Source of the DNA: Marivirga atlantica
GTDB lineage: Bacteria; Bacteroidota; Bacteroidia; Cytophagales; Cyclobacteriaceae
Reading direction: 5' to 3'
Length of the DNA: 64,000 nt
NCBI RefSeq assembly: GCF_016734805.1
Contig: NZ_JAERQG010000004.1
Span: forward strand, 248,001 to 312,000
The notes below the pieces were generated by a model that saw only the letters and a program-made list of their open reading frames with translations, was not told the origin of the DNA and made no database searches. Shown piece by piece: positions 5,019 to 23,511 of the stretch. A program made the translations under genes and the position numbers. Positions within the stretch are counted from its first letter, which is position 1; each line of letters opens with the position of its first letter.

Positions 5019-5753
5019 TTAGTTTACTGTCTTTTCTTTTAATCTATCTTCAATTACTTTTTCTATGGTATCTAAAGAAGTATAAAGCTGCTCGTAATTG
5101 TCGATAATAAAGTACTTTGTCTGAAAAACATCTTTTCTGTAGCTACTATCAATAATAGCTTCTACATCGTAGTTGAAATGATCAGGCTCATCACTAAGTG
5201 AAAATTTGGTTTCTCCAGGTGAAGAAATAATACCTGCTCCATATATTTTCAATTCACCTTGCTCGCGGATTAAGCCAAACTCAATAGTGAACCAATAAAT
5301 CCTGCTTAGCAGATGAATCGCCCATTCATCATCTATATGCTTTAGCCCTATTTTGGCTAAGCCCTGAAGAAAATCCACAAAGTGCTGATTTGTTAGCAAA
5401 GCTATATGACCAAAGACATCATGAAACATATCGGGCTCTTCCAAATAGTCTAGCTGATCCTTTGTTCTCAGCCATGTTGTTGCAGGGAATATTTTGTTAG
5501 CCAAGAGTTCAAAAAACTTATCATCATCCACTATACCTGGCACAGCAGCAACCTGCCACCCTGTTTGCTCGGCTAAATGTTTATTAGTTTCCTCAAAATT
5601 AGGAATAGACTTTTCTGTGAACTCAATTTTATCAATTCCTTTCACAAACTCTTCAGTAGCTACGGTATTAATATTTTCCCACTGCCGGCTAAAGAGTATC
5701 CTCCATACGTCCTGGTCTTCTTGTGTGTAATTTTCGTAAATCTGCTTCATCAT
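5019..5753 (-). CDS. phhA: Phenylalanine 4-hydroxylase
   Basis: Pterin-dependent non-haem iron aromatic hydroxylase that converts phenylalanine to tyrosine. The short bacterial form of 244 residues has only the catalytic domain. The iron ligands are visible as the two His of FHDVFGHIALL (H111, H116) and the Glu of FTIEFGL (E158); PGIVDDDKFF and FPATTWLR match the substrate/pterin region. Two consecutive ATG codons (5753, 5750) are possible starts. The gene lies directly behind a leader peptide with five Tyr codons and a terminator hairpin, which suggests that tyrosine supply controls it. It heads hisH-hisA-hisF-hisIE. A pterin recycling partner is not in the window. Confidence 0.95.
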   Translation of the reverse strand: MMKQIYENYTQEDQDVWRILFSRQWENINTVATEEFVKGIDKIEFTEKSIPNFEETNKHLAEQTGWQVAAVPGIVDDDKFFELLANKIFPATTWLRTKDQLDYLEEPDMFHDVFGHIALLTNQHFVDFLQGLAKIGLKHIDDEWAIHLLSRIYWFTIEFGLIREQGELKIYGAGIISSPGETKFSLSDEPDHFNYDVEAIIDSSYRKDVFQTKYFIIDNYEQLYTSLDTIEKVIEDRLKEKTVN

Positions 5754-5769
5754 CTTATTTTTTAGACAT

Positions 5770-5799
5770 AAAAAAACCCGGTTCTTTCGGAACCGGGTT
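5770..5799 (-). terminator. Attenuator terminator upstream of phhA
   Basis: Perfect 10-bp inverted repeat, 5775-5784 against 5790-5799, with a 5-nt loop. On the minus strand the stem ends in seven consecutive T (5776-5770). It lies between the leader-gene stop (5836) and the phhA start (5753), so it can only stop transcription before phhA. One arm can instead pair with a segment inside the leader gene, which gives the antiterminator. Confidence 0.88.
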
Positions 5800-5875
5800 G
5801 CTTGATATTTTAGGTTAATTTAAGTGCTATTGTAATTATGACATAACCATACCATTACCGATTCCACTTTGGAAT
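5789..5875 (-). promoter_or_regulatory. Alternative RNA pairings of a tyrosine attenuator
   Basis: Four mutually exclusive segments can be read on the minus strand. Segment 1 is ATTCC (5875-5871). Segment 2 is GGAATCGG (5865-5858). Segment 3 is CCGGTTCC (5796-5789), part of the 5' terminator arm. Segment 4 is the 3' terminator arm (5784-5775). Segments 1:2 form a 5-bp hairpin, 2:3 an 8-bp helix with one G-U pair (antiterminator), 3:4 the terminator. A ribosome stalled with its A site on the last Tyr codon (5883-5881) would cover segment 1 and free segment 2 for segment 3. The pairings are seen in the sequence; regulation is inferred. Confidence 0.72.
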
Positions 5876-5916
5876 AGATGATAATAGTAGTAATAATGGT
5901 TATTTATGTGTGTCAT
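5836..5916 (-). CDS. Leader peptide with five consecutive Tyr codons
   Basis: 26-codon reading frame starting ATG at 5916 and ending TAA at 5838-5836. It begins MTHINNH, continues with five Tyr codons (5895-5881: TAT TAC TAC TAT TAT), then HLF and a Gly-rich tail ending MVMS. It includes three His codons, two of them flanking the Tyr run. A perfect promoter ends 6 nt before the ATG, and a terminator lies 37 nt after the stop, upstream of phenylalanine hydroxylase. This is the anatomy of a trp/his/phe-type leader, here sensing Tyr-tRNA. Too short for ordinary gene finders. Its peptide product probably has no role beyond being translated. Confidence 0.8.
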   Translation of the reverse strand: MTHINNHYYYYYHLFQSGIGNGMVMS

Positions 5917-5922
5917 TGATTG

Positions 5923-5952
5923 CAAATATAACGCGCTAATTTATTAAATCAA
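5923..5952 (-). promoter_or_regulatory. Bacteroidota-type promoter of the leader-phhA(-his) operon
   Basis: Minus strand TTG (5952-5950), 19-nt spacer, then TATATTTG (5930-5923), a perfect fit to the Bacteroidota -33/-7 consensus. Only 6 nt separate it from the leader ATG, so the mRNA should start at or within a few bases of that codon. It abuts the dnaN stop codon (5956). Confidence 0.75.
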
Positions 5953-5955
5953 CTT

Positions 5956-7080
5956 TTAAACGTAATTATTTAGCATTACAGGCATCACTAACAATAGTAT
6001 GTCTTCATTTTCATCTAAGTCAGATGGAAATAACAAACCAGCTTTATTTGGTGCTGACATCTCAATAGAAATCTCTTTACTGCTTAAATTATTAAGCATT
6101 TCTACTAAGAATTTAGCGTTAAAGCCAATTTCAATATCTTCTCCCTGGTGCTCACAAGCAAGAATTTCATTAGCCTCATTAGAGAAATCTAAATCCTCAG
6201 CAAAAATCTGAAGCTCACTACCCGATATCTTTAATCTTACCTGATGTGTGGTTTTGTTTGCGTAAATACTGATCCTTCTTAATGAAGACATAAACTCCTG
6301 ACGATTGATAGTCATTTTGATATCGTTCTGCGCAGGAATTACATTTTCGTAATCAGGGAAACGCTCATCTACAAGTCTACATATCATTTTGATGTTGTTG
6401 AACTTGAAATAAGCATTAGACATATTAAATTCAACAGCAACATTTACATTCTCAGCAGGCAAACAGTTCTTCAATAAAGTTAAAGCCTTTCTTGGTATGA
6501 TAATTCCCGTACCTGCATCAGATGCTACATCCACCCTTCTATAGCGAACCAATCTGTTACCATCAGTAGCAACAAAGGTGGTATTGGTTTCATCAAAGTT
6601 TACATAAACGCCACCCATTGCCGGACGTAACTCATCATTACTCGTAGCATAAATGGTATGATTAATAGCTGTTGCTAAGATATCAGCAGAAACATCTACC
6701 GTATCAGGATTTTCTACTTCCTGTACTTTAGGGAAATCGGTAGCATTTTCACCAGCCAACTTATAACGGCCATTGTCAGAACTAATTTCTATACTGTAAG
6801 TTTCCTCGTCAATTGTTAGCGTAACTGGCTGCTCAGGTAAGTTTTTCAGTGTATCCAATAGTATCTTGGCAGGGACTGCAATACTTCCATTTTCAGACGA
6901 CTCAACATCTATTTCAGTAATCATAGAAGTTTGTAAATCTGAAGCTGTGATAGTTAATAAACCATCTTGAATTTCAAACAAGAAATTTTCAAGGATTGGC
7001 ACCACCGGATTGCTGGTAATAACACCATTGATGGCCGAAATTTGCTTCAATAGTGCTGAAGAGGAAACGATAAACTTCAT
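5956..7080 (-). CDS. dnaN: DNA polymerase III beta subunit (sliding clamp)
   Basis: Ring-shaped processivity clamp of the replicase. Length of 374 residues is standard and the three-domain fold is recognisable. Conserved landmarks are ISSDNGRYKLAGENATDFP in the middle domain, ATDGNRLVRYR, and the C-terminal LLLVMPVMLN, which corresponds to the family's P-M-(R/L) hydrophobic pocket end. dnaA and recF are not adjacent. Instead the gliding ABC gene gldG and a DUF4340 gene lie upstream. A -7 element is visible upstream, so it probably has its own promoter. Confidence 0.97.
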   Translation of the reverse strand: MKFIVSSSALLKQISAINGVITSNPVVPILENFLFEIQDGLLTITASDLQTSMITEIDVESSENGSIAVPAKILLDTLKNLPEQPVTLTIDEETYSIEISSDNGRYKLAGENATDFPKVQEVENPDTVDVSADILATAINHTIYATSNDELRPAMGGVYVNFDETNTTFVATDGNRLVRYRRVDVASDAGTGIIIPRKALTLLKNCLPAENVNVAVEFNMSNAYFKFNNIKMICRLVDERFPDYENVIPAQNDIKMTINRQEFMSSLRRISIYANKTTHQVRLKISGSELQIFAEDLDFSNEANEILACEHQGEDIEIGFNAKFLVEMLNNLSSKEISIEMSAPNKAGLLFPSDLDENEDILLLVMPVMLNNYV

Positions 7081-22989: not shown

Positions 22990-23511
22990 TTATTCATCCA
23001 TGTCTTCCAACTGTTTCAGGTTTTCCATTCCTGAAATGTTAAGACTTTTACCCATTTTAGACATTTGTTTAAGATCTATATCTCCGTAAATGCTTGCTGC
23101 TACAAAGCTACTATCACTACCTACCAGCATCACTAATTCACTGATTTTACCACCGCTTTCCTTGATAAGGAATTGCATATTGGAGTCTTTGTCTCTCACT
23201 ACCATTAACTCATCGTAACCTCTTTCAAAAGCTTTTTTAGCTTCACCGTAAAGTGCTGATGACTTATTGGTTTTCTGATTAGCAATCAACTTAATCCCTT
23301 TAATTTTTGAAACTGCATCTAGTGCTGCCTGATCTTCAGGGTTATCAGCTTCCAGGTTACTGAATAAAGAAATCATTCTTTCATTAACAGAAACCACTGT
23401 AAAGTCCTGATTTGTTGAATACTTGTTATAGAAGTTTATAAACTCTGAGTTCTGCGCAAATGCTATGTTACCTAACAAGCAAAATGCTACTATTACTATT
23501 ACCTTTTTCAT
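22990..23511 (-). CDS. DUF4252 secreted protein
   Basis: 173 residues with a cleavable signal peptide (KVIVIVAFCLLGNIAFAQ, cleavage after AFA). The body (NERMISLFSNLE, DELMVVRDKDSNMQFLIKE, ELVMLVGSDSSFVAASIYGDID) matches DUF4252, a family often encoded after ECF sigma and anti-sigma genes in Bacteroidota. It lies 17 bp after the anti-sigma-like gene and is followed by a terminator. Likely a regulon member or a periplasmic modulator of the sigma system; mechanism unknown. Confidence 0.8.
   Translation of the reverse strand: MKKVIVIVAFCLLGNIAFAQNSEFINFYNKYSTNQDFTVVSVNERMISLFSNLEADNPEDQAALDAVSKIKGIKLIANQKTNKSSALYGEAKKAFERGYDELMVVRDKDSNMQFLIKESGGKISELVMLVGSDSSFVAASIYGDIDLKQMSKMGKSLNISGMENLKQLEDMDE

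Follow-up and report, generated by a model that had tools for sequence, protein, structure and literature searches.

How is phhA, the gene for a phenylalanine 4-monooxygenase, controlled in Marivirga atlantica, where it stands behind a short open reading frame (ORF) with five consecutive tyrosine codons and in front of four his genes? The trp, his and phe leader attenuators of Proteobacteria combine a short ORF that contains a run of codons for the product amino acid with four RNA segments and a terminator. An earlier note on this DNA had proposed an attenuator of this type, reading tyrosine codons, for phhA. Here, we analysed the locus in the window, by which we mean the whole 64,000-nt stretch of M. 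atlantica DNA, and compared it with phhA loci of other Bacteroidia.

Anatomy of the region upstream of phhA

The features of the locus all lie on the minus strand and are given below with their window coordinates in the 5' to 3' direction of that strand.

7080-5956, minus strand: dnaN, directly upstream of the leader element and on the same strand as phhA
5952-5923, minus strand: promoter of the Bacteroidota type, with TTG at 5952-5950, 19 nt, and TATATTTG at 5930-5923
5916-5836 including the stop codon, minus strand: putative leader ORF of 26 codons, MTHINNHYYYYYHLFQSGIGNGMVMS (ORF call)
5898-5896, minus strand: His codon directly before the Tyr run (sequence; comparison of linked and unlinked leaders)
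5895-5881, minus strand: five consecutive Tyr codons, the candidate control codons (sequence, shuffles, conservation)
5880-5878, minus strand: His codon directly after the Tyr run (sequence; comparison of linked and unlinked leaders)
5875-5871, minus strand: segment 1, ATTCC, paired with segment 2 when the RNA is folded free
5865-5858, minus strand: segment 2, GGAATCGG, the predicted anti-terminator half inside the leader ORF, which forms a duplex with segment 3
5799-5768, minus strand: predicted intrinsic terminator, with the stem AACCCGGTTC-CGAAA-GAACCGGGTT of 10 pairs at 5799-5775 (terminator scan, fold)
5796-5789, minus strand: segment 3, CCGGTTCC, in the 5' arm of the terminator
5784-5775, minus strand: segment 4, followed by seven T at 5774-5768
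5753-5019, minus strand: phhA, phenylalanine 4-monooxygenase (TIGR01267 and NF008877 above cut-off)
4991-4407, minus strand: hisH (TIGR01855 above cut-off), 27 nt behind phhA
4407-3694, minus strand: hisA (TIGR00007 above cut-off)
3691-2936, minus strand: hisF (TIGR00735 above cut-off)
2885-2289, minus strand: hisIE (NF002747 above cut-off)

The promoter, the 26-codon leader with its five tyrosine codons, the 10-bp terminator with its T run and the placement of segments 1 to 3 had been described in the earlier note, and all of them were found again when the sequence was re-read. Two points were absent from it, namely the histidine codons of the leader and the his genes behind phhA. Histidine is encoded at codons 3, 7 and 13 of the leader, and codons 7 and 13 flank the tyrosine run, which gives the core HYYYYYH. 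The terminator stem and the phhA start codon are separated by 21 nt. phhA is the first gene of the same-strand run phhA-hisH-hisA-hisF-hisIE, which extends to 2289, and due to the shared strand and the close spacing we take phhA and the four his genes to be one putative transcript. Two adjoining, similar lipoprotein-like ORFs without an NCBIfam match at an E value of 0.001 are present at 1451-2282, also on the minus strand.

The promoter of the window matches TTG / TAnnTTTG, which we take to be the Bacteroidota consensus. A sigma-70 scan of positions 5200-6800 stayed at chance level (7 sites versus 6.6 expected) and is uninformative on the promoter. TATATTTG is separated from the leader ATG at 5916 by a spacer of 6 nt. 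Of the 73 leaders called in the bacterial family of M. atlantica (see below), 40 have a TAnnTTTG element no further than 30 nt upstream of their start, with 1.8 expected from shuffles, and the spacer measures 5 or 6 nt in 30 of these 40. As the element sits so close before the leader start, ribosomes probably begin the leader at, or only a few bases from, the first nucleotide of the transcript, that is, on a nearly leaderless mRNA.

When the 230 nt upstream of phhA were shuffled, five tyrosine codons within eight codons of a short ORF were reached in 2 of 1000 shuffles, and a chance origin of the run was rejected on these grounds. The bare TAY x5 pattern is uninformative alone, since it occurs five times in the genome and its reversed control pattern is even more common with eight occurrences; the case is carried by the position, the terminator and the conservation of the run. 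A second TAY x5 run of the window is located at 23488-23502 on the plus strand (G000:C9:271488-271502).

Five terminator-like sites were detected on the two strands of 5200-6800, compared to 0.9 expected, and two of these five are the two strands of the phhA-leader terminator. With dnaN directly upstream on the same strand, the hairpin might serve as the dnaN terminator and nothing else, and the tyrosine run might have arisen by chance, as the five TAY x5 runs of the genome would allow. However, the leader has its own promoter-like element, and the same layout recurs elsewhere behind other genes: the genes upstream of the leader and phhA differ between lineages and include asnA and DAHP synthase, the latter by its reading in 9 of the 21 loci listed and confirmed by family search in L112 and L074. 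This variation of the upstream gene led us to reject the dnaN explanation, to which we give almost no weight.

The leader region is structured, its fold being better than that of 200 out of 200 shuffles (z -3.9), and segment 1 pairs with segment 2 in the free-RNA fold of the window. Such a structure could also be expected of a metabolite-binding RNA, i.e. a riboswitch, or of a known structured RNA. However, Rfam 15 gave no match at the gathering threshold anywhere in the 64,000-nt window, and all matches in 5700-6000 stayed below threshold, among them Thr_leader (20 bits, threshold 55) and Trp_leader (17.6 bits, threshold 41). A known RNA family was rejected on these results. In addition, the codon identity of the leaders tracks the operon content (see below), for which a ligand-binding RNA has no need, making a riboswitch highly improbable.

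Conservation of the leader and of the competing pairings

Marivirga, Roseivirga, Algoriphagus, Fulvivirga, Cesiribacter and Echinicola were among the best 80 of 576 PhhA relatives, which were kept from a protein scan. A phhA family search gave matches in 194 of 295 genomes, and 60 loci were taken for comparison. The family locus set consisted of 121 distinct loci including the window, after 20 duplicates had been dropped. We refer to loci with hisH within 600 nt downstream of phhA as linked (85 loci) and to the others as unlinked (33 loci); three loci were too short to tell. Leaders were called by a rule that requires a cluster of two or more tyrosine codons together with a terminator and takes no account of histidine. 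Under this rule, a leader with a terminator precedes phhA in 73 of the 121 family loci (52 of 85 linked, 20 of 33 unlinked and one of the three short loci), and none was called in the other 48 (33 linked, 13 unlinked and two short loci). Twelve of the 33 rule-negative linked loci carry an Algoriphagus leader that is missed by the rule, with two or more histidine and one or two tyrosine codons in the core region. The N-terminus of the Algoriphagus leaders (L021, L034, L036 and others) is nearly fixed as MNPTPRT-[YF]-[VI]-HHS, a constancy ahead of the control codons that might stem from RNA pairing or from a function of the peptide as such. Outside the bacterial family, a short ORF with at least four Tyr or His codons in eight was found in 8 of 20 loci. 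Seven of these eight were viewed closely and have, as judged by eye, a hairpin and a T run between leader and phhA; they span five families of the same class. In four loci from another family of the same order, no such Tyr/His short ORF was found.

The anti-terminator pairing was assessed with segment 2 placed 0 to 18 nt after the Tyr core and the 5' arm plus loop of the terminator as its partner. A stricter first scan, confined to unbroken helices and to the terminator arm without its loop, returned p<0.05 in 33 of the 73 called leaders and p 0.075 for the window. A second scan allowing loop bases and bulges, which was set up after the result of the first was known, returned p 0.007 for the window and p<0.05 in 46 of the 73 leaders; in the other 27, the 2:3 duplex was no better than in shuffles. 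The sequence of the 2:3 helix varies by lineage, for example GGAATCGG with CCGGTTCC in the window, GGAATAGG with CCTATTCC and GGATTAGG with CCTAATCC. In 65 of 73 loci, the two halves of the 2:3 helix pair more strongly with each other than, on average, with the halves of other lineages, and when partners were permuted among 17 lineage representatives, the own partners paired better (p 0.0003), so that the two halves covary. L046, L127 and L140 showed no advantage of own over cross pairing in this comparison, and the advantage was slight in L099 and Litoribacter. The competing pairings 1:2, 2:3 and 3:4 claimed in the earlier note are thus borne out in silico by the fold, the duplex and the covariation, and the tyrosine-run leaders, terminators and pairings, on whose presence in relatives that note had made its reading depend, are conserved in many of these relatives, not in all (leaders in 73 of 121 loci within the family and 7 of 20 outside).

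Four loci were also folded with parts of the RNA masked. With a ribosome on the core and segment 4 not yet made, the best fold contained 2:3 in all 12 cases. When the RNA is free, three of the four loci tie up segment 2 in a different hairpin; L009 already forms 2:3. A ribosome at the leader stop codon blocks 2:3 in L021 and L112 and leaves it unblocked in the window and L009; the latter result, like the 2:3 pairing of the free L009 RNA, counts against the proposed switch. Of 16 masked states folded at full length, 15 retain the terminator, and the choice between 2:3 and 3:4 would therefore have to fall during transcription, as in other attenuators. One might also speculate that the short ORF acts on the translation or stability of the phhA mRNA, by coupling or reinitiation, and that the hairpin is not a regulated terminator; the terminator retained in those 15 states would fit, and the leader-like ORF before the organism's own hisG, which has no terminator-like site in the stretch scanned (see below), hints that other modes may exist. 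This explanation is, however, at odds with the recurrence across lineages of a stem, a T run and a partner that covaries with the 5' arm and loop of the stem, and we regard it as very improbable.

Histidine codons and the his genes

The histidine codons accompany the his genes. Within the family, histidine is present in the Tyr core or one codon to either side of it in 51 of 52 linked leaders versus 0 of 20 unlinked ones (Fisher p 6.7e-17, with leaders counted as independent despite their kinship). Linked cores read, for instance, HYYYYYH (window), AYYYHYYH, AYHYHYYH, AYHHHYYH, TYVHHSYH and KYYSHYYH, and unlinked cores TYYYYYQ, KYYYYYYYR and SYYYYYS. The one linked exception, L127 (MNTRQHHKGYYYYPL), has no histidine in the core and carries HH two codons before it. 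The seven out-of-family leaders are all unlinked; six are Tyr-only, and one has histidine in its core (L186, YYYYH). In Marivirga, the two linked loci (the window genome and L004) have histidine on both sides of the tyrosine run and the eight unlinked loci on neither side, most of the unlinked leaders keeping a histidine codon three codons before the run. On the PhhA tree, which was built in quick mode and is unsure in parts due to several long branches, linkage changes five times, and two of these changes are forced by well-supported branches. Of two independent pairs on well-supported branches, an average of 1.9 show codons that follow linkage and none shows the reverse; such pairs are too few for a sign test to reach 0.05. 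A likelihood-ratio test of dependent versus independent evolution gave 32.5 (p 1.5e-6), with the seven out-of-family rows included and the test being liberal with so few changes.

A simpler account would be that the attenuator reads tyrosine alone, that the histidine codons have drifted from tyrosine, a single change from TAT to CAT, and that the his genes are passengers. The five tyrosine versus two flanking histidine codons of the window agree with it, as do the Tyr-only leaders at unlinked family loci and at six of the seven loci outside, and the lack of a detectable histidine leader at the moved his unit of Marivirga. Drift should, however, also hit unlinked leaders, which is contradicted by the 0 of 20 and 1 of 7 counts given above, and the histidine-rich core region of the Algoriphagus leaders likewise argues against it. 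We therefore consider this account unlikely. The claim of a Tyr-codon attenuator in the earlier note thus stands in silico for its tyrosine part; its Tyr-only reading is probably too narrow, as leaders also carry histidine where hisH-hisA-hisF-hisIE is attached.

In seven Marivirga relatives (L143-L149), hisH-hisA-hisF stands apart from phhA. A search for a histidine leader (three His in 12 codons) in the 1.5 kb upstream of hisH found none in six of these seven loci and, in the seventh (L144), only a TTG-start His ORF 655 nt from hisH. The same search was negative in four other genomes in which the his unit is not behind phhA, so that the prediction of a histidine leader before the relocated his unit failed in both sets. 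In the Fulvivirga-type, G011 and G075 loci, hisH sits behind a gene that reads by eye as hisB. Upstream of hisG in the M. atlantica genome itself, a short ORF identified by eye, MLNAAENITSINIATPAMHAAHPFHHSSF, is found behind a TAnnTTTG element (L082:1278-1367). As no terminator-like site was found at this ORF in L082 1200-1520, it may, if it is a histidine leader, work in another way.

The reading that we prefer is an attenuator with two inputs. Beside what is observed, namely the anatomy of the element, its conservation, the codon content that tracks gene content and the covarying pairing, we infer from the sequence that the leader is translated, that ribosomes stall on it, that transcription terminates, that phhA and the his genes are co-transcribed and that the element responds to each of the two amino acids. 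In this model, the attenuator would control phhA and very probably also the hisH-hisA-hisF-hisIE genes that follow. Transcription would begin a few bases before the leader ATG, a start point predicted from the promoter-like element. When Tyr-tRNA, and in his-linked loci also His-tRNA, is well charged, the ribosome would clear the Tyr/His codons; the 1:2 hairpin or the ribosome itself would then keep segment 2 off segment 3, 3:4 would form and transcription would stop before phhA. Under a shortage of charged Tyr-tRNA or His-tRNA, the ribosome would stall in the control codons and cover segment 1, 2:3 would pair and RNA polymerase would read on. Following read-through, PhhA would make tyrosine from phenylalanine and the his gene products would make histidine. 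The switch would then answer to a shortage of either amino acid, although the two come from unrelated pathways.

That the element is a tyrosine attenuator seems to us very likely, and histidine is a likely second input in the his-linked lineages. For the window genome, where tyrosine dominates, we lean towards a role for the two flanking histidine codons. The combined reading, a ribosome-mediated attenuator that senses tyrosine, is old in Bacteroidia and takes histidine as second input where hisHAFIE is attached, appears probable to us. We also find it reasonably probable that this old, nearly leaderless phhA attenuator has been rewritten codon by codon: histidine would have entered the tyrosine run together with hisHAFIE, turning the leader into a two-amino-acid sensor, and would have been lost beside the run in the Marivirga lineage without his genes behind phhA.

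Function of PhhA and relation to known attenuators

The earlier note had assumed that phhA acts in tyrosine synthesis. The M. atlantica genome also contains tyrA. In 9 of the 34 phhA genomes searched (G170, G191, G280, G269, G263, G011, G013, G023 and G107), tyrA (prephenate dehydrogenase) had no match, and one more has a sub-cut-off match only; PhhA may be the only tyrosine source in these nine. In three Fulvivirga-type loci with Tyr-only leaders, tyrA follows about 1.2 kb behind phhA, and in L112 and L101 an aminotransferase gene lies between the two (scanned in L112, where it scored below cut-off). In the fitness data for Echinicola vietnamensis, according to passages of PMC7311316, PAH is important in some defined media, and tyrosine is proposed to be made via both PAH and prephenate dehydrogenase. 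Three other Echinicola loci have hisH 245-253 nt behind phhA, and if his genes also follow phhA in the E. vietnamensis strain studied, polar effects are conceivable in the fitness data. The genomes without a tyrA match, the order phhA-aminotransferase-tyrA and the Echinicola fitness data all fit phhA as a tyrosine-synthesis gene. Proteins resembling HmgA are encoded in 34 of 34 phhA genomes, all of them below cut-off (0 of 34 above), which leaves room for a catabolic use of phhA; such a reading, which was considered, would leave an induction at low tyrosine unexplained. No run of aromatic or histidine codons was found in a short ORF before the pheA-aminotransferase-tyrA genes of M. atlantica (tyrA was identified by family search, pheA and the aminotransferase by eye).

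Similar to the trp, his and phe leaders, the phhA leader has a run of product codons, four segments and an intrinsic terminator before the structural genes, and a competing anti-terminator was found as well, except in 27 of the 73 called leaders. It differs from them in its control codons (Tyr, or Tyr and His), in the pterin-dependent hydroxylase encoded by the first gene behind it and in its Bacteroidota promoter, which is followed by the start codon after only a few bases, and no Rfam leader family scores over threshold. Leaders whose control codons stand for two or more amino acids are also known from thr and ilv, where the amino acids share a pathway or its enzymes. The phhA leader resembles them in this respect, and its control codons for both products track gene content, albeit over few independent changes; tyrosine and histidine, however, share neither pathway nor enzymes.

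Passages of a 2025 review (PMC11802643) describe the trpL, pheL and pheST leader attenuators of E. coli and, citing Neshat 2014, the aroR leader of Corynebacterium glutamicum, which contains Phe-Tyr-Phe and precedes aroF. Like the phhA leader, aroR is an aromatic leader with a Tyr codon before an aromatic gene. According to the same passages, however, AroR is induced by Phe limitation and Tyr availability is without effect, so that it differs from the proposed phhA leader both in the amino acid sensed and in the gene controlled. A 2021 transcriptome study of Flavobacterium psychrophilum (PMC9723704) describes strong signs of attenuation by leader peptides ahead of amino-acid operons, and these leader peptides resemble the phhA leader in belonging to Bacteroidota and in preceding amino-acid biosynthesis operons; neither tyrosine nor phhA occurs in its main text. 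A 2005 TyrA paper mentions putative attenuators before tyrA operons (PMC1173090), and passages of a 2016 leader-gene paper (PMC4833913) had no match for tyrosine or phhA. A Tyr or Tyr-His leader before phhA is absent from the passages of these four papers (PMC11802643, PMC9723704, PMC1173090 and PMC4833913). In what the open-access PubMed Central literature returned in part or excerpt, we found neither a tyrosine-responsive leader-peptide attenuator nor an attenuator joining two unrelated amino acids. The class of mechanism is known. Within the literature searched, tyrosine as the amino acid sensed, histidine as its partner and a codon content that matches the gene content appear to be new.

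If the proposed attenuator operates as described, its regulation would be a separate line of evidence that these bacteria use PhhA to make tyrosine for growth, in agreement with the published fitness data. Histidine codons that are present with the his genes and absent without them amount to a natural experiment on the evolution of attenuators.
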